64,000 nucleotides of DNA from Hyphococcus luteus (GTDB lineage Bacteria; Pseudomonadota; Alphaproteobacteria; Caulobacterales; Parvularculaceae), in the NCBI RefSeq assembly GCF_002943565.1, contig NZ_PJCH01000011.1, positions 186,001 through 250,000 of the forward strand, read 5' to 3'. Of this stretch, positions 36,409-61,915 are shown in pieces (position 1 is the stretch's first letter; the number at the start of each line of letters is the position of its first letter). The position numbers and the translations under genes are program-made. Below the pieces are notes generated by a model. The model made no database searches. It was given only the letters and a program-made list of their open reading frames with translations, and had not been told where the DNA came from.

Positions 36409-36421
36409 GGGGTCCGCTCCC

Positions 36422-38839: not shown

Positions 38840-38848
38840 GATCGCCCC

Positions 38849-40276: not shown

Positions 40277-40489
40277 GAAATCCCCCTGATGAGCGTGCGC
40301 CCGCATGTTGCAGCGCACAGCAATTCTCTCCCAAATCCCCGTCATGCAAACAGCGCGCCTTTTATCTTCATAGAGACGCTGCAGGCCGTTCTTAATCGCA
40401 ACTATGCGCCGCGCTCCTTTGCGCCGCAACCGTTTTCTATTCGGCTGGACGCTGAAATTATTGTAAAAACTGGCCGTAAGACGCCGCAT

Positions 40490-41273: not shown

Positions 41274-43733
41274 TTGGAGAGCGTGAAAATCGCCATTGTC
41301 GGCTCAGGCCCTGCCGGGCTGAGCGCGGCGGGCCGCGCCGCGGCCCGGGGGATTTCGCACGTTCTCCTGGAAAAGGCCCCTCACCTTTCCGACACGATCT
41401 ACAAGTACCAGCGCGGCAAATACATCATGGCGACGCCGGACCAGTTGCCGCTCAGGTCCGACATCGAGTTTCAGGCGGGCTCGCGGGAAAGCATCATCAC
41501 CCGCTGGGACGACGACGCCGAAGACCTCAAGATCAATGTTCGCCATAATTCCGAAGTCACCGCGATTTCCGGTTCGAAAGGCGCCTTCCAGATCTCGCTC
41601 GCCGACGGCGAGACAATCAACGCCGACTTCGTCGTTCTTGCGGTCGGCGTTCAGGGCAACCCGAACAAACTGAAAAATCCGGGTACGGACCAGCCCTTCG
41701 TCCAATATCAGCTCGACGATCCGCGCGAATATTACGATGAAAACATCATCGTCATCGGCGGCGGCGACGCGGCGATCGAAAACGCGCTCGGCGTCGCCAA
41801 TCCCGACCAGGGCAATATCGTCACGCTGCTTCAGCGCTCGGACGGCTTTCCCCGCGCCAAGGAAGCCAATGTGCAAACGCTTTACAAGGCGCGCGACGAA
41901 GGCCGGCTCGACTTCATCACCGAAGCCTCGCTCATCCGCCTCGAACGCGGCGGCTCCGGCGAAAATTTGTGGATCGCCGTTGTCGATACGAAAGACGGCG
42001 AAGCGCGGCTTCCCTGCGACCGCATCATCGCCCGCCTCGGCGCCGCGCCGCCGCGCAAATTCGTCGAGGCTGCTGGCGTCGAGTTCACCGGCCCCGACCG
42101 CGAAGCTTTCCCGGTCCTGACGCCGCAATACGAAACCACCGTGCCGGGGCTGTATGTCATCGGCGCGCTCGCCGGTTTCCCCCTGATCAAGCACTGCATG
42201 AACCAGGGCCATGACGTGGTCGAGTTCATCGCCGGCAACACCGAGCTGCAACCGCCGGACACGCCGCTCCTTGAAAAACTTTTCGAAGGCGCGCCCGCGA
42301 AACGCAGCGTCGATCAATGGCTCGAGCATATCCGCTCGACCGTGGACGTGTTGCAGGACGTTTCCCCCCTGCAGATGCGTGAATTCCTGCTCGCCTCGAC
42401 CATCCATTATAAAAAGCGCGGCGACATTATCATGAAGCGCAACGACACAGGCTCGTCGATCTTCGCGATCATCGAGGGCTCGGTCGCCGTCGAGGTCGAT
42501 CCGAAAAACCCGTCCGTCACCGTGCCGATCAAGAAAGGGAACATTTTCGGCGAGCTCGGGCTCATCTCCGGGCGCCGGCGCACCGCCACCATCCGCGCGG
42601 CCGAGCCCGCCATGCTGCTCGAAATTCCGCGCAATGCGACGCTGAAATTGATGGCCTCGGTGCCGGGCGTCAAACGCCGCATGGACCGGCTTTCCATGGA
42701 GCGCCAGGTCGGCCAGATCTTCGGCCAGCTCCTGCCTCAGAGCGCCATTGACGAAATCGTCGATGCGGCGGAAATCATTCCTTTGAAAGCCGGCGACGCC
42801 TTTATCGAAGAAGGCGAGCGCAACACCGATATTTTCATCATCCGCTCCGGCAGCGCCGTCGTTGAAAAGCGCATCGGCGGCAAGGACGTTTTTCTCTCTT
42901 ACGTGCTCGCCGGCAATTATGTGGGCGAGATGTCGCTGTTTTACGAAGGGCTCAGGACCGCGACCGTGCGCGCGGCGATCAAATCGGAAGTGGTGCGTCT
43001 GCCCGGCGAAATCTTCGAGCGTCTGCTCAATCAGAATCCGGATCTGTACCGCGCCGTCGACGACCTCGTCGCCTCGCGCCGCAAGCTCAACGATTATGTG
43101 GAGGCGAAACGCGAAAGCTTCTCCTCCGTCGTCGACATGCACACCTCCATCGCGCGCTTTCTGCTCGAAGAAGAAGGCCTGTCGGAAGCGACCGACGCGC
43201 TGGTCATCGACGAAACGTTATGTGTGGGTTGCGACAATTGCGAAAAGGCCTGCGCCGACATTCACGAAGGCATTTCCCGCCTCGACCGCGAAGCCGGCAA
43301 TTCCTACGCCTATATTCACGTCCCGACCTCCTGCCGCCACTGCGAACATCCGCACTGCATGACCGACTGTCCGCCGGATGCGATCCATCGCGGGCCCGAC
43401 GGCGAAGTCTTCATCGACGAAAAATGCATCGGCTGCGGCAACTGCCAGCGCTATTGCCCTTACGGCGTCATTCAGATGGCCGCCGTGCCGCCGGAAAAAC
43501 CCGGCATCCTCTCCTGGCTTTTCTTCGGCCGCGGTCCGGGGCCTGGCGAACCGGATAAGGACTGGATCGAGAAGACGCGCAAGAAAGACGACGCACCGCC
43601 GAAGCTCGCGGTCAAATGCGACATGTGTTCAGGGCTGAAAGGCGGACCCGCCTGCGTGCGCGCCTGCCCCACCGGCGCCGCCCAGCGGGTTTCGCCGGAG
43701 GACTATCTCTCCATCGCCGAAGGGAAGGGCTAG
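41274..43733 (+). CDS. FAD oxidoreductase fused to two cyclic-nucleotide domains and a four-cluster ferredoxin
   Basis: 819 residues, no signal peptide. It has a thioredoxin-reductase-like FAD/NAD(P) half (GSGPAG at 10-15, second nucleotide site IGGGDAAIENA near 160, to about 330), then two cyclic-nucleotide domains. Their phosphate cassettes are G426-E427 ... R436-T437-A438 and G551-E552 ... R561-T562-A563; both keep the Glu and Arg needed for cAMP. The last part (C650 onward) has four Cys quartets (CVGCDNCEKAC, CRHCEHPHCMTDC, CIGCGNCQRYC, CDMCSGL...CVRAC), as in DmsB/NrfC electron-transfer subunits. A cytoplasmic NAD(P)H or quinone-linked electron entry point gated by cAMP is the natural reading. 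TTG start; GTG at 41283 is an alternative. Confidence 0.88.
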   Translation: MESVKIAIVGSGPAGLSAAGRAAARGISHVLLEKAPHLSDTIYKYQRGKYIMATPDQLPLRSDIEFQAGSRESIITRWDDDAEDLKINVRHNSEVTAISGSKGAFQISLADGETINADFVVLAVGVQGNPNKLKNPGTDQPFVQYQLDDPREYYDENIIVIGGGDAAIENALGVANPDQGNIVTLLQRSDGFPRAKEANVQTLYKARDEGRLDFITEASLIRLERGGSGENLWIAVVDTKDGEARLPCDRIIARLGAAPPRKFVEAAGVEFTGPDREAFPVLTPQYETTVPGLYVIGALAGFPLIKHCMNQGHDVVEFIAGNTELQPPDTPLLEKLFEGAPAKRSVDQWLEHIRSTVDVLQDVSPLQMREFLLASTIHYKKRGDIIMKRNDTGSSIFAIIEGSVAVEVDPKNPSVTVPIKKGNIFGELGLISGRRRTATIRAAEPAMLLEIPRNATLKLMASVPGVKRRMDRLSMERQVGQIFGQLLPQSAIDEIVDAAEIIPLKAGDAFIEEGERNTDIFIIRSGSAVVEKRIGGKDVFLSYVLAGNYVGEMSLFYEGLRTATVRAAIKSEVVRLPGEIFERLLNQNPDLYRAVDDLVASRRKLNDYVEAKRESFSSVVDMHTSIARFLLEEEGLSEATDALVIDETLCVGCDNCEKACADIHEGISRLDREAGNSYAYIHVPTSCRHCEHPHCMTDCPPDAIHRGPDGEVFIDEKCIGCGNCQRYCPYGVIQMAAVPPEKPGILSWLFFGRGPGPGEPDKDWIEKTRKKDDAPPKLAVKCDMCSGLKGGPACVRACPTGAAQRVSPEDYLSIAEGKG

Positions 43734-43736
43734 GCC

Positions 43737-44603
43737 ATGGCGGACCACATGCGCTCTTCCGGTTTGCCCATCTCCCATGAAGGGTTTTTGAACCACAAAG
43801 GCTTTCGCTATCTGAAAGTCGCGCTTGTCGTCAGCCTGATCGCAATCATCGGCTATCTCGCGGCCGATGTGCGCCTCAGACCCAATGGCGGCACCTGGTA
43901 CGGCTATAGTCTCGGCGCGATCTCCGCTTTGCTTATCGTCTGGCTGATGCTGCTCGGAATCCGCAAGCGCGCCATGACGTCAGGCCACTGGTCCTTAAAA
44001 GCGTGGACGTCGGCCCATGTCTATCTCGGCGCGTCGCTTCTGGTGCTGGCGACGCTGCACACCGGTTTTCAGTTCGGCTGGAACGTGCACACCCTCGCCT
44101 ATGGGCTGATGGTTGTGGTCATTCTCTCCGGCTTTGTCGGGATTTATTATTACGCGACCGTGCCGCGCAAAATGAGCGACAACCGCGCGCATCGCACCCA
44201 GAAAGACATGCTGGACGCAATCCGCGCGCTCAATCGTGAATTGCGCGAGGCGGCCCAGCCGCTCGACCAGAAATATGTCGAGGTGGTCAAGCGCGCGATC
44301 CGCAACACGAAGCTGAAGCCCGGCCTCTTTCAGTCCATCGCCGGCGCCCAGCGCCAATGCGCGACGACGCGCGCCGCAAAACGCCTCAGGAAAGCCGCGG
44401 CGAACGCCGATCCCGAGATGCGCCGCCCGCTCGAAGCGGTGACCGCGATCCTCGAGCGCAAGTCCGCCCTTCTCCTCAGGACCCGCCGCCATATCCGCAA
44501 CAAGACGCTGTTGCAGCTCTGGCTTTACATCCATGTGCCGATCTCGTTTGCGCTGCTCGCGGCGCTGACGGCGCATATCATTTCCGTCTTCTTCTACTGG
44601 TGA
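43737..44603 (+). CDS. Di-haem b-type membrane protein
   Basis: 288 residues with about five membrane helices (26-45, 56-76, 92-110, 117-140, 262-287). Two helices carry His pairs with the spacing used for stacked haems: H94-x13-H108 and H266-x13-H280. That is the bis-His pattern of cytochrome b subunits, giving one haem near each membrane face. A polar loop with a coiled, basic segment (about 142-258) should face the cytoplasm. It starts four bases after the FAD/ferredoxin gene and four Fe-S clusters could feed it directly. I do not know an exact family. Expected role: electron transfer between the cytoplasmic Fe-S enzyme or quinone pool and the decahaem protein encoded next. Confidence 0.75.
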   Translation: MADHMRSSGLPISHEGFLNHKGFRYLKVALVVSLIAIIGYLAADVRLRPNGGTWYGYSLGAISALLIVWLMLLGIRKRAMTSGHWSLKAWTSAHVYLGASLLVLATLHTGFQFGWNVHTLAYGLMVVVILSGFVGIYYYATVPRKMSDNRAHRTQKDMLDAIRALNRELREAAQPLDQKYVEVVKRAIRNTKLKPGLFQSIAGAQRQCATTRAAKRLRKAAANADPEMRRPLEAVTAILERKSALLLRTRRHIRNKTLLQLWLYIHVPISFALLAALTAHIISVFFYW

Positions 44604-44610
44604 GGCGGAA

Positions 44611-46428
44611 ATGGGCATTCGCGTAGAATTCATCAAAAGACGGCCCGGCGGACGCATCACGGTGCGGCCCACGATTTACGACAAGAAAGACGTCACCCTC
44701 GGCCGTGCCACCGACTGCGATGTTTTCCTGAGCGATCTTCGCGTCGGCCTTTATCACGCCAAGCTGACCCAGCTTTCGGCGAACAAGGCGCGCCTCGAAG
44801 CCAACGGCGATCATCGCGTGCGCGTCGACGGCGCCCAGGTGCGCCGCCGGGAGATCGGCCTCAAGGACGGTTCGACCATCCGCATCGGCCCTTATAAAAT
44901 CGCTTTAAGCCCGGCAGACAACAAGGGCGACATGCTCATCACCATCGAGCTGGTGGAGGAGCCGACGCCGGTGCGCGACAAGCGCGACGAAGAGGCCGTC
45001 TTCACCATGCGCGGTTATGCGCCCGACAAGCGGGCGAGCGCCTGGGTTTTGCTGTCTTTGATCGCCATCGTCTTTCTGGCGGCGCCCGTCGTCCTGCATT
45101 TCCGCGCCAAGGATCCGGAAACGCCGGGCCTCGCGGCGCATCTCGCGATGACGACGAACCAGACCTGGCTCGCCGGCTCCATGGCGTCGTCCCACGCCAA
45201 CCTCACCGAGGATTGCCGCTCCTGTCACGTAACGCCTTTCGAGCGGGTGACGGACGCGGCCTGCCTTTCCTGTCATGAAGACATGCGCGATCACGCCGAT
45301 CCGCACGCCATGCTGGCGGCGATGCCGGACCATAAAGGCGCCGATATCGTGCCGGCGGCGTTGCGCAAAGGGCTTTCCATTCCCGAAAGGCGCTGCGGCT
45401 CCTGCCATTTCGAACATAACGGGCCGACCGGCGTCATCCCGTCGGACGCGCAGCTTTGCGTCGATTGCCATGACGAACTCGACCAGCGTTTCACGGAAAC
45501 GACGCTGGTCAATGTTTCGAATTTCGCGCGCCGCCATCCGGAATTCTCGCCCGCCATCGTGCTCGACCCTGAGGCCGAGCCGCCGGAGACGACGCGCATC
45601 TCCCTCGTCAAACACCCGAAAGAAAACAACGGCCTCACCTTCCCGCACGATCTTCACCTCAAAGACGAAGAGGTCATCCGCAAACTCGAAACTCTGCCGG
45701 CCAATGTAAGGGCGCGCTATGGCGACGAACTCGATTGCGCGGACTGCCACGAAACCGACGCAGCGGGCGCGCTCATTAAACCCATCGAGATGGAAGAGCA
45801 TTGCAGCGACTGCCACTCTCTTGCTTTCGCCGCGAGTGATGATGAAGTGCGCAACCTCCCCCATGGCGAGCCGACGGAAGTGCGCCGCGTGCTCGAAGAT
45901 TTCTATCTCGCGCAGGCGACTAATCTTTTGCTCGGCGACCGGCCCGACACCCTTCTCGAACGCCAGTTGAGCGCCGAAGCGCGCGCCCGGCGCGAACGGC
46001 TGCGCGCGCAGGCCTTCGCCGACGCCAAGAAAAACACCGATGAAATGATCGCGCGCATCTTCTCCGAGGAAGGCGTCTGCCGGAAATGCCATGACAACGT
46101 TGATCCGGCGACGCGGCAGGGCCTGCCCGAACTGACGCCGGTGCGGCTCACCACGCACTATCTGCCCATGGCGCATTTCAATCACGCCGATCACATGACC
46201 GGCAACATCAAGTGTCAGACCTGCCACAAGGCCGAGACATCCGCCTCCTCAGAAGACGTCCTGATGCCCTCGATCACGGTCTGCCGGGCCTGCCATGACG
46301 ATACGGCCGGGCGGACCGCCATCGCTTCGGATTGCTTAACCTGCCATTCCTATCATGATGAGGATGAGGAAACGCCGCTGATGAGCCCTGCGGGGCTCAG
46401 GTCGGCGATGAGCGGGGGACGGCGATGA
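44611..46428 (+). CDS. FHA-domain, membrane-anchored decahaem c-type cytochrome
   Basis: 605 residues. The N-terminal cytoplasmic FHA domain (about 15-110: VTLGRATDCDVFLSDLRVG and the HAKL segment) is followed by one membrane helix (about 141-162), then a periplasmic domain with ten CxxCH haem sites: CRSCH, CLSCH, CGSCH, CVDCH, CADCH, CSDCH, CRKCH, CQTCH, CRACH and CLTCH. FHA domains bind phosphothreonine, but the usual Ser of the SxxH motif is Gly here, so binding may be altered. A protein joining cytoplasmic phospho-signalling to a ten-haem wire is unusual. It overlaps the next gene by four bases (ATGA). Confidence 0.88.
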   Translation: MGIRVEFIKRRPGGRITVRPTIYDKKDVTLGRATDCDVFLSDLRVGLYHAKLTQLSANKARLEANGDHRVRVDGAQVRRREIGLKDGSTIRIGPYKIALSPADNKGDMLITIELVEEPTPVRDKRDEEAVFTMRGYAPDKRASAWVLLSLIAIVFLAAPVVLHFRAKDPETPGLAAHLAMTTNQTWLAGSMASSHANLTEDCRSCHVTPFERVTDAACLSCHEDMRDHADPHAMLAAMPDHKGADIVPAALRKGLSIPERRCGSCHFEHNGPTGVIPSDAQLCVDCHDELDQRFTETTLVNVSNFARRHPEFSPAIVLDPEAEPPETTRISLVKHPKENNGLTFPHDLHLKDEEVIRKLETLPANVRARYGDELDCADCHETDAAGALIKPIEMEEHCSDCHSLAFAASDDEVRNLPHGEPTEVRRVLEDFYLAQATNLLLGDRPDTLLERQLSAEARARRERLRAQAFADAKKNTDEMIARIFSEEGVCRKCHDNVDPATRQGLPELTPVRLTTHYLPMAHFNHADHMTGNIKCQTCHKAETSASSEDVLMPSITVCRACHDDTAGRTAIASDCLTCHSYHDEDEETPLMSPAGLRSAMSGGRR

Positions 46429-47765
46429 GTAGAGTTTTCATTGTCTTAGCGCTGACTTTTGCGAGCCTGACTGCGCCCGCCGCGGCGCAGGCCCCTTTCG
46501 GGGACCATCCCGTTCCGCTGAATGACGGCCTCACCCATATGGGCGTCGCCAGCTGTTCGACCGCCGGCTGTCACGGCGATCAGGTCTCCGGCGTCGGCGC
46601 CGGTCCCGTGGTCGGCCAGAACGAATATTTCCAATGGGCCTCGCGCGGCGAAAAAGGCGCCCATTCGCGCGCTTACGAAGTCCTTCTGACGCCGCATGGG
46701 AAACGCATCGCCGCCAATCTCGGGGTCGGCCGCGCGGAAGCCGCGCCCGAATGCCTTTCCTGTCACGCCGACGCGGCGCCGAACAAAACGGCGCGCTTCC
46801 AGATTTCCGACGGCGTCGGCTGCGAGGCCTGTCATGGCGGCGCGCAGGAGTGGCTCGCCTTTCACCGCATCGGCGCCGGCCATGAAGCCAACATCGAGGC
46901 GGGGCTCTATCCCACCGAGGACCCGGCGGCGCGGGCGCGCCTTTGCATGGGCTGTCATTTGGGCTCCAGTTTCGAAAACCAGTTCGTCAATCACCGCATT
47001 ATGGGCGCCGGTCATCCGCGCCTTAAATTCGAACTCGATCTTTATACGACCATTCAGCAGCATCACGTCGTCGATGACGATTACCGCACGCGCAAAACCG
47101 TCGCGCCGGGCGCGCAAGTCTGGGCCGTGGGGCAGGCCATGGGGCTTGAACGCACGCTCGAGCTTCTTCTCGACAATGACACGGGCTCGGCGGGCGCTTT
47201 TCCCGAACTCGTCTTTTTCGATTGCCACGCCTGTCACCAGCCGATTTCCGAAGGCGACGGCCAGTTGAGCTGGCGGCCGAATCCCGGCCGCGCCCTCGGC
47301 CCCGGCGCGCCGATCCTGAACGACGCCAATCTCATCATGCTGCAGGCGGCGATGCGCGTCGTCGATCCCGCCATTGCGGAGAGACTCGACAGCGAAGGCC
47401 GCGTCCTCCACGCCGCCTCGCAGCATTCGGGCGATCATTTCCATAATGCGGCGCGAACGCTCAAAGGCACCGCAAATGAGGCCGTCGCGCGCATACTGGG
47501 CTCGGATCTTTCGAGCCCTTCAGCCGCACGCGCCATGCTGGTCCAGGTGACCGACGCTAAATTCGCCAAGCGCTACACGAATTACGCCGCCGCCGAACAG
47601 GCGCTCTTCGCCGTGCAGCGGCTGACGGCGGCGATGAATGCGGACAATGCGGCCATGCGCGCGGCCATTGAAAAGGCGAGCCGCGCGGCGCAGAGCCCTT
47701 ATGCGTATAATCAGAATGCGTTCACAGCCGCCCTCGCCGATATCGGGGCCATGGCGGGCGGTTGA
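46425..47765 (+). CDS. Periplasmic pentahaem c-type cytochrome with one CX4CH site
   Basis: 446 residues. The signal peptide ends APAAAQA (about residue 22). Four standard sites (CLSCH, CEACH, CMGCH, CHACH) plus CSTAGCH near the N-terminus, a CX4CH haem site of the kind seen in some multihaem nitrogen- and sulfur-cycle cytochromes. The spacing loosely resembles the cytochrome c554 family, with extra His residues as distal ligands (for example NHRIMGAGH, QHHVVDD). A helical C-terminal domain (about 330-446) has no haem site. It likely carries electrons across the periplasm between the membrane-anchored decahaem protein and the outer membrane. Start overlaps the previous stop. Confidence 0.85.
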   Translation: MSRVFIVLALTFASLTAPAAAQAPFGDHPVPLNDGLTHMGVASCSTAGCHGDQVSGVGAGPVVGQNEYFQWASRGEKGAHSRAYEVLLTPHGKRIAANLGVGRAEAAPECLSCHADAAPNKTARFQISDGVGCEACHGGAQEWLAFHRIGAGHEANIEAGLYPTEDPAARARLCMGCHLGSSFENQFVNHRIMGAGHPRLKFELDLYTTIQQHHVVDDDYRTRKTVAPGAQVWAVGQAMGLERTLELLLDNDTGSAGAFPELVFFDCHACHQPISEGDGQLSWRPNPGRALGPGAPILNDANLIMLQAAMRVVDPAIAERLDSEGRVLHAASQHSGDHFHNAARTLKGTANEAVARILGSDLSSPSAARAMLVQVTDAKFAKRYTNYAAAEQALFAVQRLTAAMNADNAAMRAAIEKASRAAQSPYAYNQNAFTAALADIGAMAGG

Positions 47766-47836
47766 GAGAACAACAAGCGCCGGACGCGGGCGTTACTGTC
47801 ATCGCGTCGGTTTTGGGGATAGCGGGAGAGACGACT

Positions 47837-49366
47837 ATGTTCTGGCGTAAGAAAAACAAGCAGTCGTTCGATGCGGCGCCGGCGGAAACGCCGCCGCGCG
47901 AGACGAAGGAAACGCCTGCGCCGATCGCAAAGGCGCACAAAGATATGAGCCTCGATCTGAGGCGCAAAACCGGCGAGCCCGTGCAGCGCTTCGCGGTCGG
48001 CATCGCCGGCGGCGGCAATGTGGTCAGCGAGATCGATCACTTCATGGACGGGCTGATGCGGCGCAATCCGCATGAGCCGGAATTCCATCAGGCGGTGTTC
48101 GAATTCGTCGAAACGGTGATGCCGTATTATCTCGATCACCGCAAATACACCGATGCGCGCATTCTCGAACGCATGACCGAGCCGGACCGCATCGTTTCGT
48201 TCCGCATCGTCTGGGAAGACGATAATGGCGTGCCCCACGCCAACAAGGGCTTCCGGGTGCAGTTCAACTCCTCCATGGGCCCTTACAAGGGCGGGCTGCG
48301 CTTCGACCCGAGCGTTAATGTCAGCATTCTGAAATTCCTTGGCTTCGAGCAGACCTATAAAAACGCTCTCACCCGCCTGCCCATGGGCGGCGGCAAGGGC
48401 GGCTCGAACTTCAATCCGAAAGGCCGCTCGGACCGCGAGATCATGCGGTTCTGTCACGCCATGATGAGCGAGCTGTTCCGCCATATCGGCGAGAGCACGG
48501 ACGTGCCCGCCGGCGACATCGGCGTCGGCGCGCGCGAGATCGGCTATCTTTTCGGCAAGTACAAACAGCTCTCGAACCATTTCACCGGCGGCGTTCTCAC
48601 CGGCAAGGGCCTCTCCTTCGGCGGCAGCGAAATCCGCAAGGAAGCGACCGGCTACGGCGTCGTCGTTTTCGCCGAAGACATGCTGAAACACCATGGCAAG
48701 ACCATGAGCGGCAAGACCGTCGCCGTTTCCGGATCCGGCAATGTCGCGATCTACGCCGTGCAGCGCGCCATGCGCATGGGCGCGAAAGTCGTCACCGTTT
48801 CCGACAGCCGCGGCTTTGCGCATCTGCCGAACGGCTTCACCGATGAAAGCTTCGCGATCCTGCAGGACATCAAGGAGAACCGGCGCGAAAGCCTCGCCGT
48901 CTTCGCGCAGGAAGCCAAAGGCGTCACTTACCACGCCGGCAAGTCGCCCTGGTCCGTCCCGGCGCAAGTGGGCCTGCCCTGCGCCACGCAGAACGAAGTC
49001 GACGAAACCATGGCGCGCGTTATGGCGAAGAACGGCATGGAATGTCTCGCCGAAGGCGCGAACATGCCGCTCACCGCGCAGGCTATACACGTACTGAAAG
49101 ACGCCGGCGTCATTTTCGGCCCGGCGAAAGCGGCGAACGCCGGCGGCGTCGGCTGCTCCGGCCTTGAACAGGCGCAGAACGCCCAGCGGCTTTTATGGAC
49201 CCGCGACCAGGTGGAGCAGGAGCTCGAGAAAATCATGCGCTCCATCCACGAGCAATGCGTGGAATACGCGCCGGTGAAAAACGGCGTCACGGACTATCAG
49301 GCCGGCGCGAATATTGCGAGTTTCGCGCGGGTCGCCGACGCCATGATCGGCTACGGCTATCTCTAG
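47837..49366 (+). CDS. gdhA: Glutamate dehydrogenase with an N-terminal extension
   Basis: 509 residues; the usual hexameric enzyme is about 450. The N-terminal extension of about 45 residues (MFWRKKNKQSFDAAPAETPP and onward) is low in complexity. The core is typical: RVQFNSSMGPYKGGLRFDP, the catalytic-Lys loop LPMGGGKGGSNFNPKGRS, and a Rossmann domain with VSGSGNVA. It interconverts glutamate with 2-oxoglutarate and ammonia using NADP. I took the ATG at 47837, preceded by GCGGGAGAG; the longer frame begins inside intergenic DNA. It lies 71 bases after the pentahaem gene on the same strand, inside the redox cluster, which is odd for a nitrogen-assimilation gene. Confidence 0.93.
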   Translation: MFWRKKNKQSFDAAPAETPPRETKETPAPIAKAHKDMSLDLRRKTGEPVQRFAVGIAGGGNVVSEIDHFMDGLMRRNPHEPEFHQAVFEFVETVMPYYLDHRKYTDARILERMTEPDRIVSFRIVWEDDNGVPHANKGFRVQFNSSMGPYKGGLRFDPSVNVSILKFLGFEQTYKNALTRLPMGGGKGGSNFNPKGRSDREIMRFCHAMMSELFRHIGESTDVPAGDIGVGAREIGYLFGKYKQLSNHFTGGVLTGKGLSFGGSEIRKEATGYGVVVFAEDMLKHHGKTMSGKTVAVSGSGNVAIYAVQRAMRMGAKVVTVSDSRGFAHLPNGFTDESFAILQDIKENRRESLAVFAQEAKGVTYHAGKSPWSVPAQVGLPCATQNEVDETMARVMAKNGMECLAEGANMPLTAQAIHVLKDAGVIFGPAKAANAGGVGCSGLEQAQNAQRLLWTRDQVEQELEKIMRSIHEQCVEYAPVKNGVTDYQAGANIASFARVADAMIGYGYL

Positions 49367-49390
49367 GCGCTGAGGGGGAAGAAAACAGGC

Positions 49391-51415
49391 ATGACGGGCG
49401 GAAGACATCTCTTCTTGGCGGGCCTCTTGGCGCTGACGCTCAGCGCCTGCCTTTCCGCTTGCGGGGGCGGCGCGGAAGAAACCGCCTTGCCCGATCCGGG
49501 AACGCCGCCGCCGGCGCCGCCCGCCTCTTCGCCGCTTTTCAAACCGGTCGTCCGCAGCCTGACGGCGTCCGAGGTCGAGACCATCATTGCGCAGGCCGTC
49601 GGCGAAGCGAACGCCCGCTCGACGCCCGCAACCATCGCGGTCACCGACCGCGTCGGCAATGTGCTCGGCGTTTTCGTCATGAACGGCGCGCGCACGACAA
49701 CAACCGTGCGCGAAGGCCCTTCCGGAACGCCCGACACGAGCCTGCAGGGCGTCGAGGTGCCGGCGACGCTCGCCGCAATCTCGAAAGCCATTACCGGCGC
49801 CTATCTGTCCTCCGGCGGCAATGCGTTTTCTTCACGCACAGCAAGCCAGATCGTGCAGGAGCATTTTCCGCCCGCGCCCTCGACAACCGGTCTTGAAAGC
49901 GGCCCGCTTTTCGGCGTGCAGTTCTCGCAGCTTCCCTGCTCCGATTTTGCGACGCGCTTTTCCATGGGCGGGCCGGGGATCGGACCGAACCGCGCGCCTT
50001 TGGGCCTTTCCGCCGACCCGGGCGGCTTTCCGCTCTACAAGAACGGCGCCGTCGTCGGCGGGATCGGCATCGTCACCGATGACGATTACGGCTTCGACCC
50101 GAACATTCTCGATGTGGATGAAAGCGACGAAGAAGCCATCGCCTGGGCGGGCGCATTCGGCTTCACGGCGCCCAAAGAGATCCGCGCCAATCGCATCTTT
50201 GTTGACGGCACGGCGCTGCGCTTCACGGATGCGGGCAATGAAGACCTGATGAGCGATCCCGCTTCGGCCCCGGCCTATGCGGCGATCGCCGCCGGCGTCG
50301 AAGGCGACTTGACTGACGTCACCGCTTATTTCGACGGCGCGTCCGGCGGCGGCGTTTATGCGGGAACGGCTTACGGCGCCGAAAGCTCCGGCATTCGTCC
50401 GGCGACGCCTGCTGAATATTCCAACGAAGACATTTATGTTCTCACCGACGGCGCGGGAACGAACCGCTACCCCGCAACCGGCGGCACGGACGGCGCCAGC
50501 GTCGCCGCGCCGCTGACGGCCGCAGAAGTCACCGCCATTCTCGAAGAAGCTTACGGCGTGATGACCGCGGCGCGCGCACAGATCCGCCAGCCGCTCGAAA
50601 GCCGCGCGCAGGTTTCGATCTCGGTCGTCGACACGAACGGGCAAATCCTCGGCATCATTCGCGGCCCCGACGCGCCGATTTTCGGCACGGATGTCTCGTT
50701 GCAGAAAGCGCGCACGGCGGCGTTCTTTTCCGGCGCCGAGGCCGCCTCGGATTTGACCGGAACGGCGGGCCCCGCCGTCGCCGGGTTCAATACAACGAAG
50801 CCGGTCGCCTCCTATGTGCAGGATGTGCGCGACTTCATTCCCGATCCGGCGGCGCTCACCGGAACCGTCGCTTTCGCCGACCGCTCCGGCGGCAATCTTT
50901 CGCGTCCCTATTTCCCGGATGGCGAAGTCGGGACGGCCAACGGCCCCCTGTCGCTGCCCATCACGGAATGGAGCCCCTTCGCCACGGGTCTTCAATCGTC
51001 CTTGATCGTCGACAACATCCTTGAGCATGTGATTCATGTGCTGGGCGGCGGCGCAGATACGGCCATCGGCTGCACGGGCCTGCCTGACATTCCCTCGCTT
51101 GCGGGCGTGCAGAACCGCCTGCAGAACGGCATTCAGATTTTCCCGGGCTCGGTGCCGGTCTATCGGGGCGACACGCTGATCGGCGGCGTGGGCGTTTCCG
51201 GCGACGGCATCGACCAGGACGACATGATCTCGTTTCTCGGCGTTCATCGCGCGGGCGAGCGCCTCAATGGCGCCCTCGGCAACGCGCCCGAAGCGATCCG
51301 CGCCGATCAGATCGTGATTTCCGTCAACGGGGCGCCGGTGCGCCTGCGCTTCGTTAATTGTCCGTTCAATCCGTTCGTCGGCTCGAACGAACAGAATGTC
51401 TGTCAGGGGAAATGA
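49391..51415 (+). CDS. Lipoprotein with two GlcG/HbpS-like domains
   Basis: 674 residues. Lipoprotein signal MTGGRHLFLAGLLALTLSAC, with a second LSAC just after it, then a Pro-rich linker. Two related domains follow: about 55-300 (LTASEVETIIAQAVGEANAR, IAVTDRVGNVLGVFVMNGA, GIGIVTDD) and about 370-650 (LTAAEVTAILEEAYGVMTAA, SVVDTNGQILGIIRGPDA, GGVGVSGDG). Each matches the GlcG/HbpS fold, whose members bind haem or cobalamin outside the cytoplasm. In a multihaem cluster, haem sensing, storage or delivery is plausible but unproven. The ATG at 49391 follows GAGGGGGAAG. Its stop overlaps the start of the barrel gene (ATGA), so expression is coupled. Confidence 0.8.
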   Translation: MTGGRHLFLAGLLALTLSACLSACGGGAEETALPDPGTPPPAPPASSPLFKPVVRSLTASEVETIIAQAVGEANARSTPATIAVTDRVGNVLGVFVMNGARTTTTVREGPSGTPDTSLQGVEVPATLAAISKAITGAYLSSGGNAFSSRTASQIVQEHFPPAPSTTGLESGPLFGVQFSQLPCSDFATRFSMGGPGIGPNRAPLGLSADPGGFPLYKNGAVVGGIGIVTDDDYGFDPNILDVDESDEEAIAWAGAFGFTAPKEIRANRIFVDGTALRFTDAGNEDLMSDPASAPAYAAIAAGVEGDLTDVTAYFDGASGGGVYAGTAYGAESSGIRPATPAEYSNEDIYVLTDGAGTNRYPATGGTDGASVAAPLTAAEVTAILEEAYGVMTAARAQIRQPLESRAQVSISVVDTNGQILGIIRGPDAPIFGTDVSLQKARTAAFFSGAEAASDLTGTAGPAVAGFNTTKPVASYVQDVRDFIPDPAALTGTVAFADRSGGNLSRPYFPDGEVGTANGPLSLPITEWSPFATGLQSSLIVDNILEHVIHVLGGGADTAIGCTGLPDIPSLAGVQNRLQNGIQIFPGSVPVYRGDTLIGGVGVSGDGIDQDDMISFLGVHRAGERLNGALGNAPEAIRADQIVISVNGAPVRLRFVNCPFNPFVGSNEQNVCQGK

Positions 51416-53145
51416 TGATCCGCAAACTCATCATATCCCTTTCTCTCGCCGCGCTTGCCGCGCCTGCGCTCGCACAGGAAGAAGCCCCCTTAAACCCCGG
51501 CGCCGTGGCGCCGCCGCGCATTGGCGATTACCCAGATTGCCGCGACGACGGCCGCGAGTTCACCGAATGCGCCCCGGCGATTCCCGACCGCTGGCGCCTT
51601 GCGGAAACTCTCGGGCTCGTCAAAACCCGCTGGTGGGACCCTTACAATCAAAACACGTTGAAGGGCGACCGGCCCATCTTCGGCGATGACTGGTTCTTTG
51701 TCGCCGCGCTCGTTTCCGACACAGTGGTGGAGCCGCGGTCCTTCCCGATCCCCGTGGGCGTGCAGACGACGACCGACGCGGGCGACATCGACGTTTTCGG
51801 CGATAGCGACAGTTTCGCTTTTAATCAGAACCTCATCACCAGTTTTTCGCTGATCAAGGGGTCGACGGCGTACAAGCCGCAGGATCTGGAATTCCGCGTC
51901 ACGCCGGTCTTCAATTTCAATTTCGCCCATGTGAACGAAAAGCGCATTCTCTATGTGGAGCCCTCGGAGAAGCTGAACCGCAAGGACGGCTTTATCGGCC
52001 TGCAGGAAGCCTTTGTCGATTATCACCTGCGCAATGTTTCCGAACGCTACGATTTCGATTCCGTGCGCGTCGGCATCCAGCCCTTTTCGTCGGACTTCCG
52101 CGGCTTCCTCTTCCAGGACAACCAGCTCGGCGTCCGCTTTTTCGGCAATCGCGACAATAACCGCTTCCAGTACAATCTCGCCGCCTTTATGCGCGTCGAG
52201 AAGGATACAAATTCCGGTCTTAATGACGTATCGCGCCGCCCCCGCGACGATTTTGTTTTCCTCGCCAATCTCTATCGCCAGGACCTGCCCTTCCCCGGCA
52301 TGACCAGCCAGGTGACGGCGGTTTACAATCTCAATCGCGAGGCGGACGACATCGAGATCGACAAGAACGGCTTTCCCGTGCGCCCGGCGCTGATCGGCAA
52401 TTTGCGCGGGCGCGACTATGACGTCGTTTATCTCGGCTATAACGCCGACGGGCGCATCGGGCGCATCAACCTCACGGCGTCGGCCTATTACGCCCTCGGA
52501 GAAGACCGCAATTCGATCTTCACCGACGAGAAAGCGAAAATCCGCTCTTTCTTTGCGGCGGTCGAGCCGTCTTATGATCGCGGCTGGGGCCGGGTGCGCC
52601 TGTCGGGCCTCATAGCCAGCGGCGACGGCGACCCGTATGACGATACGGAGCACGGCTTCGACGCCATCTTCGAAAACCCGCAATTCGCCGGCGCCGACAC
52701 GTCTTACTGGATCAGGCAAAGCGTGCCGTTTATCGGCGGCGGGCGCGTCATCGGGCTTAACGGGCGCAACAGCGTCTTGCCGGATTTGAGATCGACCAAG
52801 GAACAGGGCCAGTCCAATTTCAACAATCCGGGGATCATCCTCGCCGGCGCCGGCGCCGATTTCGATATTCTTCCTGAACTGCGCGTTTCGGTGAACCTCA
52901 ACCGGCTCTGGTTCCACAAGACCGATACGATAGAGGCGCTGCGCGTTCAGGGCGGGATCGACCGATCCATCGGCTGGGATTATTCCGGCGCGATCATCTA
53001 CCGCCCAAATTTCATCCAGAACATCGTCTTCCGGCTTTCCGGCGCGGCGCTAGAGCCCGGCGACGGCTTCCGCGCGCTTTACGACAACAATGAGGACCGG
53101 GACCTTTATTACTCCGTCCTCTTCAACGCGGTCTTAAGTTACTGA
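51412..53145 (+). CDS. Outer-membrane beta-barrel of the electron conduit
   Basis: 577 residues. The signal peptide MMIRKLIISLSLAALAAPALA is followed by alternating amphipathic strands with many aromatic girdle residues, ending YYSVLFNAVLSY, an aromatic-terminated last strand. That is a porin-type barrel, not a TonB receptor (no plug). I see no close match to MtrB/PioB, and the CxxC motif of MtrB is absent. Position decides the reading: its start overlaps the haem-domain lipoprotein and its stop overlaps the large decahaem gene (TGATG), the usual arrangement of a porin-cytochrome complex in which a barrel sheathes a haem wire. It could instead be an ordinary carboxylate or alginate porin. Confidence 0.75.
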   Translation: MMIRKLIISLSLAALAAPALAQEEAPLNPGAVAPPRIGDYPDCRDDGREFTECAPAIPDRWRLAETLGLVKTRWWDPYNQNTLKGDRPIFGDDWFFVAALVSDTVVEPRSFPIPVGVQTTTDAGDIDVFGDSDSFAFNQNLITSFSLIKGSTAYKPQDLEFRVTPVFNFNFAHVNEKRILYVEPSEKLNRKDGFIGLQEAFVDYHLRNVSERYDFDSVRVGIQPFSSDFRGFLFQDNQLGVRFFGNRDNNRFQYNLAAFMRVEKDTNSGLNDVSRRPRDDFVFLANLYRQDLPFPGMTSQVTAVYNLNREADDIEIDKNGFPVRPALIGNLRGRDYDVVYLGYNADGRIGRINLTASAYYALGEDRNSIFTDEKAKIRSFFAAVEPSYDRGWGRVRLSGLIASGDGDPYDDTEHGFDAIFENPQFAGADTSYWIRQSVPFIGGGRVIGLNGRNSVLPDLRSTKEQGQSNFNNPGIILAGAGADFDILPELRVSVNLNRLWFHKTDTIEALRVQGGIDRSIGWDYSGAIIYRPNFIQNIVFRLSGAALEPGDGFRALYDNNEDRDLYYSVLFNAVLSY

Positions 53146-56100
53146 TGCGCGCGCTCCTGACCATACTCCTCGCTTTTGCACTCTTCCCGGGCGCCGCCTT
53201 CGCATCGGGCGAAGAAAAGCCCGTCGAGCGCGATTATTCGCGGGTCACGGCGCCGCCCACGCCGGTCTATCAGACGCAAGCGGACGTCGAAGCGAAAAGC
53301 GCTGGCTGCCTCACATGCCATACGGCGACGGACGCGCCGACCATGCACAACCCCGCCGCCGATCTCAGGATCGGCTGCACCGACTGTCATGGCGGCGCCG
53401 CGGACGTCTTTGCCAATGGTTTAACGAGCGGGAGCGAGGCTTACGAAAACGCGCGCGACCGCGCCCATGTGCTGCCGACCTATCCGGAAAGCTGGCATTT
53501 CCCGCATTCGGCCAATCCCAAACATTCCTATGCGCTCCTCAATAAGGAGTCGCCGGAATTCATCCGTTTCGTGAACCCGTCCGATTATCGCGTGGCGCGC
53601 GAGGCCTGCGGCAATTGCCATATGCGCGAGATTCTCGCCTCGGAACGCTCGCTGATGGCGACGGGCGCCATGCTGTGGGGCGGCGCCGCCTATAACAACG
53701 GCATCCTGCCTTTCAAGAAATATGTGATCGGCGAGGCTTACACCCGCGACGGCGAACCGGCGGCGATCTGCTCCCCGGGCGAACCGGTGGAAGGCGACCA
53801 TCCCCTTGGCTGCCCGACGGCGCCCTCCGAAGCGGCTCAATTGCGCGGCGCCCTGCCTTATCTCGCGCCGCTGCCCACCTGGCATGTCCTGCCGCCGGCG
53901 GACATTTTCCGCGTTTTCGAGCGCGGCGGGCGCAACATCCTGACGCAATTCGCCGAAGTGGGCCTGCCCAACGCCGCGGGCCAGTTGCAGCGTCTCGAAG
54001 AGCCGGGCCGCCCGGACATCCGCCAGTCGAACCGCGGCCCCGGCACCGGCCTGCGCGTCGCGATCCCGGTCTTGAATATTCACAAGACGCGCCTCAACGA
54101 CCCGTTCACCTGGTTCCTCGGCACCAATGACAATCCGGGCGATTACCGCTCCTCGGGCTGCGCATCCTGCCATGTAGTTTACGCGAACGACCGCGAACCG
54201 CGCCATGCGCTCACCTATGCGCAATATGGCCGCGACGGCGAGACCATCACCAAGGACCCGACCATTCCGAAAGGCGAGCCCGGCCACCCTTTAAAGCACG
54301 CTTTCACGCGCGCCATCCCGACCTCGCAATGCATGATCTGCCACATGCACCAGCCGAACATGTTCCTGAACACGTATCTCGGCTACACCATGTGGGATTA
54401 CGAATCCGACGCGCCCTTCATGTGGCCGGAAGAACAGAAATACCCGACCATTAAAGAGCAGCGCGAAGTCCTCGATCGCAACCCGGAAGGCGCGGCGCCG
54501 CGCGGCAAATGGGCGGATCTCGATTTCCTGCGCGACGTCTACGATCTCAACCCCGAGCTCAACGACACGCAGTTCGCCGATTATCACGGTCATGGCTGGA
54601 ACTTCCGCGCGATCCTGAAACGCGACCGCGAAGGCAACCTTCTCGACGCCGACGGCAACATTGTTGCGAATGACGACCCCGAAAAATGGCGCAAGGACGG
54701 CGAAGGCAAGTTCGTCGAGGCCGGGACCAATCCCGGCAAGACCGTCCACATGATGTCGATCCACGCCGAGGTCGGCATGCAATGCGTCGACTGCCATTAC
54801 GCCCAGGACAGCCACGGCAACGGCTATATCCATGGCGAAGTCGCGAGCGCCGTCGAAATCCGTTGCAAGGATTGTCACGGCACCGTCGACGCTTATCCGA
54901 ACCTCAAAACCACCGGCCCCGCCGCGGGCCCCAATGGCCGCGATCTCGCCGTCCTGAAAAACCCGGACGGGCGCAACCGCTTCGAATGGATGAAGCGCGG
55001 CGGACGCAATGTCCTGATCCAGCGTTCGATCATCGACCCCGATCTCGAATGGGAAGTCTCGATGGTCAAAGACAGCGTCACGCCCGGCTCGCCCAATTAC
55101 AACGCCAAGGCCGCGCGCGCGAAAACCATGTCCATGGGCGCCGACGGCAAGCTGGCCTGGGGCGTCAAGTCCGACAAATCCAACCTCGCCCACAAGGACG
55201 ACGAGATGGAGTGTTACACCTGCCATCTTTCCTGGACGACCTCCTGCGGCGGCTGTCACCTGCCCATCGAGGCGAACTGGAAAGCGGAAATCCACAAATA
55301 TGAAGGCGGCGAGACGCGCAATTACGCCACCTACAATCCGCAGGTGGCGCGCGACCAGATGTTCCAGCTCGGCAAGCATCAGGACACCAAGAACAACACC
55401 GTCGCACCGGTCCGCTCGTCTTCGGCGCTGGTCTTGTCGTCGACCAACGTCAATCGCGAACGCATCTATGTGCAGCAGCCGCCGATTTCCGCCGCCGGCT
55501 TTTCAAGCCAGGCCTTCGCGCCGCACTTCCCCCACACGGTCAGGAAAACCGAGACCAAGACCTGCACCGACTGTCATTTGTCAGCCGATAATGACAACAA
55601 CGCCATCATGGCGCAGCTCATGCTGCTCGGCACGAATTTCGTGAACTTTGTCGGCATGCACGCTTATACGGGCCTCGACGGCGCCATCGAGGCGGTGCGC
55701 GTCACCGAATGGGAGGAGCCGCAAGCGGTGTTCGGCTCCTATCTCCATAAATACGCCTATCCCGATTATTACAAAGCCCATGTGGAGCGGAACGGCCGCG
55801 AACTCGTCAACTGGACCCGCGGCAAGACCTTCGGCGAAGGGCTTTCCGGCGAGACCGGCGCCTTGGAAGAAATCGCCAATGTGACCCAGGACGCCGGCGG
55901 CGCCGTCAACTGCCTGCAACTGCGCGGCGAATATCTCTACGCCGCCGAAGGCAAGGGCGGCTTTCGCGCCTATGACGTGGCGTCCATCGCCAATAAGGGC
56001 CTTTCGGAACGCTTCATCACGGCGCCCTTCTCGCCGCTCGGCCATGACACCCATGTGAAGACCGAGAACGCGACCTGCATGGTTCTGCCGACGAACCAGC

Positions 56101-57080
56101 CGATTAATCCGGCGCGCAACACCGAAGACTTACGTGAGCGCAACCACGAACAAGCGATCCATCCGATCTACAATTACGCGGTCATCACCGACGCCGAAGA
56201 AGGTCTCATTCTCGTCAACATCAACACCCTGGCCGACGGCGAGCCGCGCAACAATTTCTTCAAGCGCGCGCTCACCTGGAACGAAGGCGGCGTCTTAAAC
56301 GGCGCACGGCACATCACGCTTGGCGGGACTTACGCCTATATCGCCGCGGACGCCGGGCTCGTCGTCGTCAATCTCGACGATCCGCTCCATCCGAAAACGG
56401 AAAGCGTCACCCCCGTGGCCGGCATGCGCGCCAGCGCGCTGCAGTTCCGTTATCTTTTCGTGACAGACGCGCAAGGTTTGAAAGTCTTCGACGTCACCGA
56501 TCTCGCCAAGCCCAAACTTGTCGAGGGCGCGAGCGTTGCCCTCGCCGACGCACAGAAGATCTATCTTGCGCGCACCTACGCTTATGTGGCGGCGAAAGCG
56601 CAAGGTCTCGCCATTATCGACATCGAAAACCCGGAAACGCCGAAGCTCTATCAGGCCTTTACCGGCGGCGGCGCGCTGGGCGATGCGCGCGACGTGATCG
56701 TCGCCACCACCAACGCCTCGCTCTTCGCTTATGTTGCGGACGGGAAAAACGGCCTTAAGGTCCTGCAACTCACCAGCCCGGAATCGCAGCCCAATTTCTA
56801 CGGCTTCTCCCCCGAACCGAAGCCGGAAATCATCGCCTGGGCGAAAACGCCTAAACCCGCGCTGGCGCTCTCGAAAGGCCTCGACCGCGACCGCGCCGTG
56901 GACGAAACCGGGCACCAGATGGCGGTTTTCGGCCGTTTCGGCTCGCGCCCCTTCACCCGGCCGGAAATGGAGCGGCTTTTCCTGAAAGAGGATGGCGAGC
57001 CCTATTTCGTGAGCGACGACGTCGAGAAAACAGCCCGGGGCGCGCGAACGGAAACGACCGTGAAAAGCAGCGGGCGATAG
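53145..57080 (+). CDS. Large decahaem c-type cytochrome with C-terminal LVIVD beta-propeller
   Basis: 1311 residues. Type I signal peptide to about AFA-SG (residue 21). Ten CxxCH sites over about residues 55-830: CLTCH, CTDCH, CGNCH, CASCH, CMICH, CVDCH, CKDCH, CYTCH, CGGCH and CTDCH. Then from about 900 to 1240 come LVIVD-type repeats (YLYAAEGKGGFRAYDVASI, YAYIAADAGLVVVNLDDP, YLFVTDAQGLKVFDVTDL, YAYVAAKAQGLAIIDIENP), which build a beta-propeller. No lipobox. Such a propeller could bind a partner or substrate at the cell surface or in the periplasm. Start overlaps the barrel stop by one base. It is the terminal component of the predicted conduit. A substrate oxidase or reductase role, in either direction, is possible. 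Confidence 0.88.
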   Translation: MRALLTILLAFALFPGAAFASGEEKPVERDYSRVTAPPTPVYQTQADVEAKSAGCLTCHTATDAPTMHNPAADLRIGCTDCHGGAADVFANGLTSGSEAYENARDRAHVLPTYPESWHFPHSANPKHSYALLNKESPEFIRFVNPSDYRVAREACGNCHMREILASERSLMATGAMLWGGAAYNNGILPFKKYVIGEAYTRDGEPAAICSPGEPVEGDHPLGCPTAPSEAAQLRGALPYLAPLPTWHVLPPADIFRVFERGGRNILTQFAEVGLPNAAGQLQRLEEPGRPDIRQSNRGPGTGLRVAIPVLNIHKTRLNDPFTWFLGTNDNPGDYRSSGCASCHVVYANDREPRHALTYAQYGRDGETITKDPTIPKGEPGHPLKHAFTRAIPTSQCMICHMHQPNMFLNTYLGYTMWDYESDAPFMWPEEQKYPTIKEQREVLDRNPEGAAPRGKWADLDFLRDVYDLNPELNDTQFADYHGHGWNFRAILKRDREGNLLDADGNIVANDDPEKWRKDGEGKFVEAGTNPGKTVHMMSIHAEVGMQCVDCHYAQDSHGNGYIHGEVASAVEIRCKDCHGTVDAYPNLKTTGPAAGPNGRDLAVLKNPDGRNRFEWMKRGGRNVLIQRSIIDPDLEWEVSMVKDSVTPGSPNYNAKAARAKTMSMGADGKLAWGVKSDKSNLAHKDDEMECYTCHLSWTTSCGGCHLPIEANWKAEIHKYEGGETRNYATYNPQVARDQMFQLGKHQDTKNNTVAPVRSSSALVLSSTNVNRERIYVQQPPISAAGFSSQAFAPHFPHTVRKTETKTCTDCHLSADNDNNAIMAQLMLLGTNFVNFVGMHAYTGLDGAIEAVRVTEWEEPQAVFGSYLHKYAYPDYYKAHVERNGRELVNWTRGKTFGEGLSGETGALEEIANVTQDAGGAVNCLQLRGEYLYAAEGKGGFRAYDVASIANKGLSERFITAPFSPLGHDTHVKTENATCMVLPTNQPINPARNTEDLRERNHEQAIHPIYNYAVITDAEEGLILVNINTLADGEPRNNFFKRALTWNEGGVLNGARHITLGGTYAYIAADAGLVVVNLDDPLHPKTESVTPVAGMRASALQFRYLFVTDAQGLKVFDVTDLAKPKLVEGASVALADAQKIYLARTYAYVAAKAQGLAIIDIENPETPKLYQAFTGGGALGDARDVIVATTNASLFAYVADGKNGLKVLQLTSPESQPNFYGFSPEPKPEIIAWAKTPKPALALSKGLDRDRAVDETGHQMAVFGRFGSRPFTRPEMERLFLKEDGEPYFVSDDVEKTARGARTETTVKSSGR

Positions 57081-57173
57081 GCTAGACTGATCTTGGGGCG
57101 CGCCGGCATGTAAATTTGGCGGCGCGGGACGCCGCAGGGGCGAAACGCGGCGCTTGAAAATGGGGTGACGGCC

Positions 57174-61457: not shown

Positions 61458-61915
61458 CAGCCGCGCTCGTCCAGAATGCGATTGACGGCGTCTTCATCGT
61501 CTTCGGACAGAGGCGCCGACGCAGCCGCCGGTTTTTTACTGCCGCGCAGGAAGAAAAAGGCGCCCGCCGCGCCAAGAAGAAGCGCCGCCGCTGGAAAGCC
61601 CCAGAGGAAAAGCGTGTTGCCCTGCACCGGCGGCTTCAACAGCACATAATCGCCATAGCGCTCGACAATATAATCCATGACCTCTTCGTCGCTTTCCCCC
61701 ATGGCGATGCGCTCGCGCACAAGAATGCGAAGATCCTTCGCCAAAGGCGCATTCGATTCCGCAATCGACTGGCTCTGACAGACGACGCAGCGCAAATGCG
61801 CGTCGATCTTTTCCGCGCGCGCTTCAAGCGCCGGATCGTCGAGCAATTCGTCCGGCTCGGCGGCGAACGCGGCCGCGCTGAACAAGAACGCCGCGAGAAT
61901 GGAGAACAGTCTCAT
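61457..61915 (-). CDS. ccmH: Cytochrome c maturation protein CcmH (CcmL)
   Basis: 152 residues. The signal peptide ends AAFA, then the thiol-reductant motif CVVCQSQSIAESNAPLAKDL, the CcmH signature (RCxxCQ), a short helical bundle and one C-terminal membrane helix. CcmH keeps the cysteines of apo-cytochrome c reduced for haem ligation. It overlaps ccmG by four bases and ccmI by one. The gene lies in the expected order in the ccm operon. Confidence 0.93.
   Translation of the reverse strand: MRLFSILAAFLFSAAAFAAEPDELLDDPALEARAEKIDAHLRCVVCQSQSIAESNAPLAKDLRILVRERIAMGESDEEVMDYIVERYGDYVLLKPPVQGNTLFLWGFPAAALLLGAAGAFFFLRGSKKPAAASAPLSEDDEDAVNRILDERG

Follow-up and report, generated by a model that had tools for sequence, protein, structure and literature searches.

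We analysed a run of genes, labelled A to H below, that reads rightward on the forward (+) strand of the window (the whole 64,000-nucleotide stretch of DNA under study). The run encodes a flavin and Fe-S protein with cyclic-nucleotide-binding domains (A), an inner-membrane di-haem b protein (B), a membrane-anchored decahaem cytochrome (C), a secreted cytochrome c554-like protein (D), a glutamate dehydrogenase (E), a lipoprotein (F), an outer-membrane barrel (G) and a secreted decahaem cytochrome with a beta-propeller (H). All of the genes named in an earlier, sequence-only reading of this DNA lie where it had placed them, although its list lacked E and F. Gaps of 3 nt and 7 nt separate A from B and B from C, respectively. 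The ATGA and TGATG junctions described in that reading were found between C and D (common ATGA) and between G and H (common TGATG), and the reading frames of F and G overlap at AATGATGA.

The same reading had counted 25 c-type haem motifs, and this number was confirmed as 24 CXXCH plus one CX4CH over three cytochromes: C (10 CXXCH), D (4 CXXCH and a CX4CH, CSTAGCH, all conserved among its full-length orthologues) and H (10 CXXCH). Elsewhere in the 64 kb only two CXXCH motifs occurred in all six frames, so the clustering of haem motifs is not a product of chance; at genome scale the CXXCH DNA pattern was too noisy for counting cytochromes. Ten haem motifs were present in each full-length orthologue of C, and H kept ten in all aligned orthologues and in 79 of 80 named loci. 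Genes for cytochrome c maturation were located downstream.

Proteins of the inner module

Gene A (41274..43733) starts with TTG, and its product matched Pyr_redox_3 (8.5e-31), cNMP_binding (5.8e-34, in two stretches) and Fer4_11 (PF13247; 3e-10). The four-cluster Fe-S/FAD enzyme proposed earlier was borne out by 16 Cys for four [4Fe-4S] clusters, invariant among 16 sequences, but the two cyclic-nucleotide-binding domains had been overlooked. Both domains contain the Glu and Arg of the phosphate-binding cassette (GELGLISGRRRTA and GEMSLFYEGLRTA), and residues E427, R434-436, E552 and R561 were invariant in the 16 sequences. The fold of the flavin domain suggests NAD(P)H as the substrate of A, and this NAD(P)-type domain together with the cNMP domains suggests a controlled exit of electrons from the cytoplasm.

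Directly downstream of A, B (43737..44603) contains two exact WX3HX13H motifs and SGXXG, as do 15/15 of its orthologues; the text of He et al. 2017 (PMC5566968) assigns this signature to two b haems. C (44611..46428) has an N-terminal cytoplasmic FHA domain (Pfam, 6.5e-07) followed by a single predicted transmembrane helix (140-167) and a periplasmic decahaem region with a match to Cytochrome_C7, while D (46425..47765) is a predicted secreted protein matching Cytochrome_C554 (1.6e-09). The next gene, E (47837..49366), encodes an NADP-specific glutamate dehydrogenase (NF006929, 1.3e-201) with an N-terminal extension, and its true start is likely 47837 instead of 47762. We rejected E as a core member because it lies inside the operon only among close relatives.

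Proteins of the outer module

F (49391..51415) encodes a 674-residue lipoprotein with HbpS/GlcG-like repeats (Pfam HbpS-like, 1.2e-20); it is a conserved core member of the cluster and adjoins G and H in 72/80 named loci. G (51412..53145) carries a signal peptide and probably starts at the ATG at 51412. Searches of Pfam and NCBIfam at E 0.1 returned no match to G, and no relatives of G or H were found by sequence in the PDB. The AlphaFold2 model of G (mean pLDDT 65) forms 18 strands and resembles solute channels, its best structural matches being AlgE (Z 24.8) and OprD-type channels, with no MtrB-type entries among the matches listed. H (53145..57080) has a C-terminal LVIVD propeller (Pfam, 5.6e-19), and its AlphaFold2 model is good in the propeller and of low pLDDT in the haem part. 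Foldseek matches of this model were dominated by propellers and are uninformative on the haem domain because that part of the model has low pLDDT.

The sequence-only reading had proposed an envelope-spanning conduit. In a true extracellular conduit, H (or C-D-H together) would move electrons through or across G, either to an external acceptor (e.g. an electrode, humics or metal oxide) or inward from an external donor such as Fe(II) or Mn(II). A barrel-plus-decahaem arrangement is common to the cluster and to MtrCAB, MtoAB and PioAB, the porin gene is joined directly to the decahaem gene, and F-G-H are strictly conserved together. However, the MtrB barrel has 26-28 strands, as against 18 in the AlgE/OprD-like model of G, and H, with one haem per ~80 residues, is unlike an MtrA-type wire and has a plain signal peptide in which a lipobox was not found. 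The same reading had seen no obvious match to Mtr or Pio, and C, H and G indeed failed the MtrA/DmsE, OmcA/MtrC and MtrB/PioB models: the best score to the MtrA/DmsE family (TIGR03508) was 23.4 bits (C) against a cutoff of 192, and H was unmatched by the OmcA/MtrC family (TIGR03507) at E 0.1. Since the model of G is solute-channel-like and H is not wire-like, a crossing of the outer membrane by this cluster is only putative; the term envelope-spanning was dropped, and a conserved, envelope-associated redox chain is what the data support. We regard an extracellular conduit as unlikely, even though extracellular transfer has been proposed, in the text of He et al. (PMC5566968), for the related candidate cluster PCC4.

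Likeness to the Geobacter Ext cluster (extHIJKLMNOPQS; PMC5877670) raises another reading, which is possible if rather doubtful: a periplasmic reductase of oxyanions (selenite/tellurite) or small molecules, with G as the putative substrate channel and H as the catalytic reductase. Like the window cluster, Ext combines a porin with several multihaem cytochromes and a cytochrome b, and its porin ExtI is needed for selenite/tellurite reduction and not for Fe(III) citrate reduction (PMC5877670); the model of G is solute-channel-like. By sequence, the haem region of H appears to be a remote relative of ExtM (1.5e-18), the two being bridged by 12-haem ExtM-like proteins in other genomes (E ~1e-67 to ExtM), but its 66.4 bits fall far under the ExtM cutoff of 800. 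No rhodanese or Rieske genes were seen in the window cluster, which also differs from Ext in the propeller of H and in the flavin/Fe-S/cNMP protein A. For F-G-H we favour an oxidoreductase of the periplasm or outer membrane that has a channel of its own over a haem wire running inside a barrel.

Conservation of the cluster and comparison with PCC4

Conserved co-occurrence in other genomes, whose absence the sequence-only reading had named as evidence against its proposal, was present. The core D-F-G-H plus A-B-C was found in hundreds of alphaproteobacterial contigs, and the cluster is widespread in common alphaproteobacteria; the order D-F-G-H was constant, C-B-A lay nearby in many alphaproteobacteria, and D was present in 67/80 named loci. 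Within one sample, B occurred in 19/19 H-bearing genomes compared with 7/270 others (Fisher p ~3e-24, uncorrected for phylogeny). Some genomes carried D-F-G-H with no visible A-B-C within 10 kb, and in these another donor may serve H. On a Sphingobium plasmid copy of the cluster, every gene was annotated "hypothetical protein".

We compared the cluster with PCC4, a candidate porin-cytochrome cluster in the text of He et al. 2017 (PMC5566968). As described there, the PCC4 inner-membrane protein bears two WX3HX13H motifs and SGXXG, the signature found in B; subgroup II has a pfam13247 Fe-S gene upstream of this protein, which A fits; and the 10-haem and 4-haem cytochromes correspond to C and D (the latter with its additional CX4CH). 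PCC4-like clusters that we detected likewise shared B and C with the window, and in most cases A and D as well, with a 5-haem protein and an unrelated porin in place of F-G-H. The PCC4 5-haem cytochrome, of ~600 residues in that text, is absent from the window cluster, and when the 5-haem proteins from three of the PCC4-like clusters were compared with H by profile, they proved unrelated to it. Between G and putative PCC4 porins from three genomes, references chosen by architecture and not by accession, the hhalign probability was 0.2%. The PCC4 text of He et al. 2017 (PMC5566968) describes neither F nor an LVIVD decahaem protein, and a search of a literature library, including the text of that paper, found nothing on an LVIVD-decahaem protein or on this cluster. 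PCC3, according to the same text, shares the histidine signature of B but has very haem-rich cytochromes (median 34 and 21 haems, 22-39 residues per haem), compared with 10, 5 and 10 haems in the window cluster.

Because the signature of B, together with A, C and D, matches the inner half of PCC4, the earlier description of the whole system as undescribed was too strong, and would apply only to the outer module. Judged by sequence, it is F-G-H that sets the cluster apart from PCC4, the inner half being already known from that candidate system. A modular build of this kind, in which the same inner module is combined with either of two outer modules that are unrelated to each other, would shed light on the evolution of such conduits.

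Proposed electron path and cyclic-nucleotide neighbours

We put at about an even chance that the cluster is an NAD(P)H-linked electron pathway leading from the cytoplasm to H, possibly nucleotide-gated. From the observed domains, motifs, conservation and linkage we infer the order and direction of electron flow, its gating and the location of H, as follows. A would deliver electrons of NAD(P)H to B by way of its flavin and its four [4Fe-4S] clusters, and B would transfer them over the inner membrane to C. D would act as the periplasmic shuttle from C to H, and at the outer membrane H may work with the lipoprotein F and the 18-stranded barrel G. A-B-C-D would form an inner module also used in PCC4-type clusters, and F-G-H a different terminal module. 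Flow would probably be gated via the two intact cNMP domains of A and the FHA domain of C. If the cluster does export electrons, its host bacteria own an unrecognised outlet for reductant.

Multihaem chains are reversible, and electron flow could also be inward; at B, quinone could either give or accept electrons. A donor in the periplasm or outside the cell (e.g. Fe(II), Mn(II) or reduced sulphur) would then reduce quinone at B, or NAD(P)+ via A by reverse electron transport, and in the text of He et al. (PMC5566968) PCC3 and PCC4, with quinone-active inner-membrane proteins, are put forward as systems of Fe(II) oxidisers. Export of reductant is nevertheless the better fit to the NAD(P)-type flavin domain and the putative gating. 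Furthermore, the hosts are mostly Sphingomonadales and Caulobacterales, which to our knowledge are not known as lithotrophs, and we consider inward flow quite improbable.

Genes of cyclic-nucleotide turnover lie close to the cluster. A CHASE2 adenylate/guanylate cyclase (34165..36408, - strand; CHASE2 3.6e-52, Guanylate_cyc 1.7e-19), ~5 kb upstream, may supply the nucleotide that A would sense. Across loci, a CHASE2 cyclase was near the cluster in 30/100 (1.7 expected) and a CpdA/SpdA-like (cAMP-type) phosphodiesterase in 56/100, an enrichment inflated by the phylogenetic non-independence of the loci. The link held in Sphingomonadales, Caulobacterales and Parvularculaceae-type loci, and was not seen in more distant families. 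A bolder reading, less likely than not, is that the linked cyclase and phosphodiesterase set cAMP/cGMP, that direct binding to A switches the export of NAD(P)H electrons, and that F-G-H is an unreported terminal oxidoreductase module; direct cyclic-nucleotide control of an electron chain would, if true, be a new kind of regulation. Directly downstream of the cluster lies a Na+/H+ exchanger gene (57165..59699, + strand; Na_H_Exchanger 1.3e-60) with a C-terminal cNMP-binding domain (cNMP_binding 3.5e-19), a neighbour kept only in close relatives of the window.

Composition and conservation of the cluster

The cluster at 41274-57080 of the window consists of eight genes, all on one strand, whose products we refer to as A to H. 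A combines a flavin/NAD(P) domain with two cNMP domains and four [4Fe-4S] clusters, B is a cytochrome b, C is an FHA-TM-decahaem protein and D is c554-like, with four CXXCH and one CX4CH motif; these form the inner module. E (47837-49366, + strand), an NADP-glutamate dehydrogenase (GDH) with an N-terminal extension of ~60 residues (MFWRKK...), is inserted in the operon ahead of the outer module, which comprises F, an HbpS/GlcG-like lipoprotein, G, a barrel, and H, a decahaem protein with an LVIVD propeller. C carries a membrane anchor, and D, F, G and H carry signal peptides. The 24 CXXCH motifs of the three cytochromes are not a chance occurrence, since the remainder of the 64 kb holds only two more in six frames. 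The sequence-only reading had correctly described the haem count (25 c-type haems), the gene overlaps and the protein types, but overlooked E, F, the cNMP domains of A and the FHA domain of C.

Of 385 genomes of the class, 35 gave matches to H (E < 0.001); most of these are full-length (~58-71% identity) and a few are distant hits only. In a phylum-wide sample full-length H was confined to the class. A scan of named genomes returned at least 585 relatives, of which 80 loci were kept (Sphingomonadales, Caulobacterales, Parvularculaceae and similar). Ten CXXCH motifs were present in H in every aligned protein and at 79 of these 80 loci, the exception being L131, where the reading frame is broken. 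Among 289 genomes searched for B (E < 1e-100), it was present in all 19 bearing H versus 7 of the 270 without H. D, F, G and H follow one another in that order, and C-B-A usually lies a few kb away on the opposite strand; the single run seen in the window is a local arrangement. GDH lies within the operon only in near relatives of the window, and a GDH gene lies within ~10 kb at 26 of the 80 named loci.

Several other genes recur nearby. An acetolactate-synthase-like gene lies within 10 kb at 24/80 named loci, and a CcmI-like TPR gene ~10 kb from H at 28/80. Just downstream of the cluster, window 59877-63998 (-) encodes cytochrome c maturation proteins (ccmI, an NrfF/CcmH-like haem-lyase subunit and dsbE, plus, by inspection, a ccmF-like frame). 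In eight distant loci (L042, L043, L045-L047, L052, L054, L056), the interval between C and F holds a conserved gene for a small secreted protein of ~150 residues and unassigned family, which the window lacks. The cluster can be plasmid-borne: L206 (AP027331.1) and further Sphingobium records carry all of it on large plasmids (0.9-1.3 Mb). The size and order of two large 'hypothetical' genes immediately upstream of D in L206 (678-8650, plasmid pTomTYG65a) suggest that they may encode a two-partner secretion pair. About 10 named loci have a POTRA/ShlB-like gene near the cluster, and about 10 have a long repetitive protein there.

Relation to known porin-cytochrome clusters

C, D, G and H all failed models of MtrA/DmsE, OmcA/MtrC and MtrB/PioB, in agreement with the earlier statement that no Mtr or Pio match was obvious. 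A closer likeness is to the putative porin-cytochrome clusters of He et al. 2017 (PMC5566968). According to that paper, PCC3 and PCC4 inner-membrane proteins carry two WX3HX13H motifs and SGXXG, and B has exactly these; PCC4 as described there comprises cytochromes with 4, 5 and 10 haems, a porin and an inner-membrane protein, with a pfam13247 Fe-S gene upstream of the latter in subgroup II. When B was used as the query, clusters fitting the PCC4 description emerged in three other genomes (L191, L192, L193). In all three, B and C are accompanied by a putative porin of ~540 residues and by two further haem proteins, one with 4 (or 4+1) haems and one of ~600 residues with 5 haems; two of the three also have A. 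Because these clusters lack F, G and H, and their 5-haem protein and putative porin have no profile similarity to H and G, the window is, as judged from sequence, a PCC4-type inner module joined to a different outer module. PCC4 membership of the window itself was rejected, as two defining parts that were looked for are not found there. The cluster is real, conserved and uncharacterised, but the term 'undescribed' is too strong, as the literature partly anticipates it through its inner module.

The outer module and the proposed electron path

AlphaFold2 (16 sequences) predicted G as an 18-stranded barrel (mean pLDDT 65, strands mostly 70-90). Many OprD/Occ solute channels were among its best structural matches, together with AlgE (Z 24.8, rmsd 3.1-3.2 over ~360 residues). 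The solved structure of MtrB has 26 strands. PMC5877670 lists 28 predicted segments for MtrB. The modelled barrel is unlikely to serve as a sheath for a decahaem. The haem part of H has ~80 residues per haem, against a quoted ~33 for MtrA; the periplasmic part of C (~42) is nearer to wire-like, but C is anchored in the inner membrane. With an 18-stranded G, sparse haems in H and C so tethered, electron transfer across the outer membrane, and with it the rival reading of a real extracellular conduit, is therefore only possible. The 'envelope-spanning' claim is not supported as stated.

From the cofactor motifs, the anchoring of C, the signal peptides and gene linkage, we infer that the most likely path would run outward from NAD(P)H through the FAD and four Fe-S clusters of A to the two b haems of B, then to C and D and on to H, with G and F, G perhaps passing a solute substrate. 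In a rival reading electrons flow inward, with Fe(II) or Mn(II), for example, as the donor. Another, compatible with the outward path, is an Ext-like oxyanion reductase: the haem part of H shows a remote relationship to ExtM (66 bits), and ExtM comes from a Geobacter cluster in which selenite/tellurite reduction, unlike that of Fe(III) citrate, depends on the porin ExtI (PMC5877670). Other genomes encode 12-haem proteins that score ~225 bits against ExtM and are 22-29% identical to H; at L201 7546-11348 and L202 2846-6680 such proteins are paired with TorC/NapC-type pentahaem quinol oxidases, apparently a separate system related to H.

A possible link to cyclic nucleotides

As a lead, sequence features suggest that cAMP or cGMP may gate A. 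Each of its two cNMP domains retains the phosphate-binding cassette's Glu and Arg (16/16 aligned sequences), a CHASE2 nucleotide cyclase lies ~5 kb upstream of the cluster in the window, and the next gene downstream is a Na+/H+ exchanger with a cNMP domain. CHASE2 cyclases were found in 30 of 100 cluster loci (2.0 Mb) versus 1.7 expected from the 81 counted in the 96.5 Mb of 26 such genomes, and a CpdA/SpdA-like phosphodiesterase (annotated cpdA in Sphingobium) in 56 of the 100, usually between H and C, although many of these loci are close kin and neither figure is independent. The cyclase/phosphodiesterase link is missing in more distant families carrying the cluster. In the leftward set upstream, at window 34165-40489 (-), the CHASE2 cyclase gene is accompanied by genes for a TPR/SlipAM-like outer-membrane protein and a FecR-domain protein; similar genes of all three types (CHASE2 cyclase, FecR-like and TPR) recur near the cluster in Sphingomonadales.
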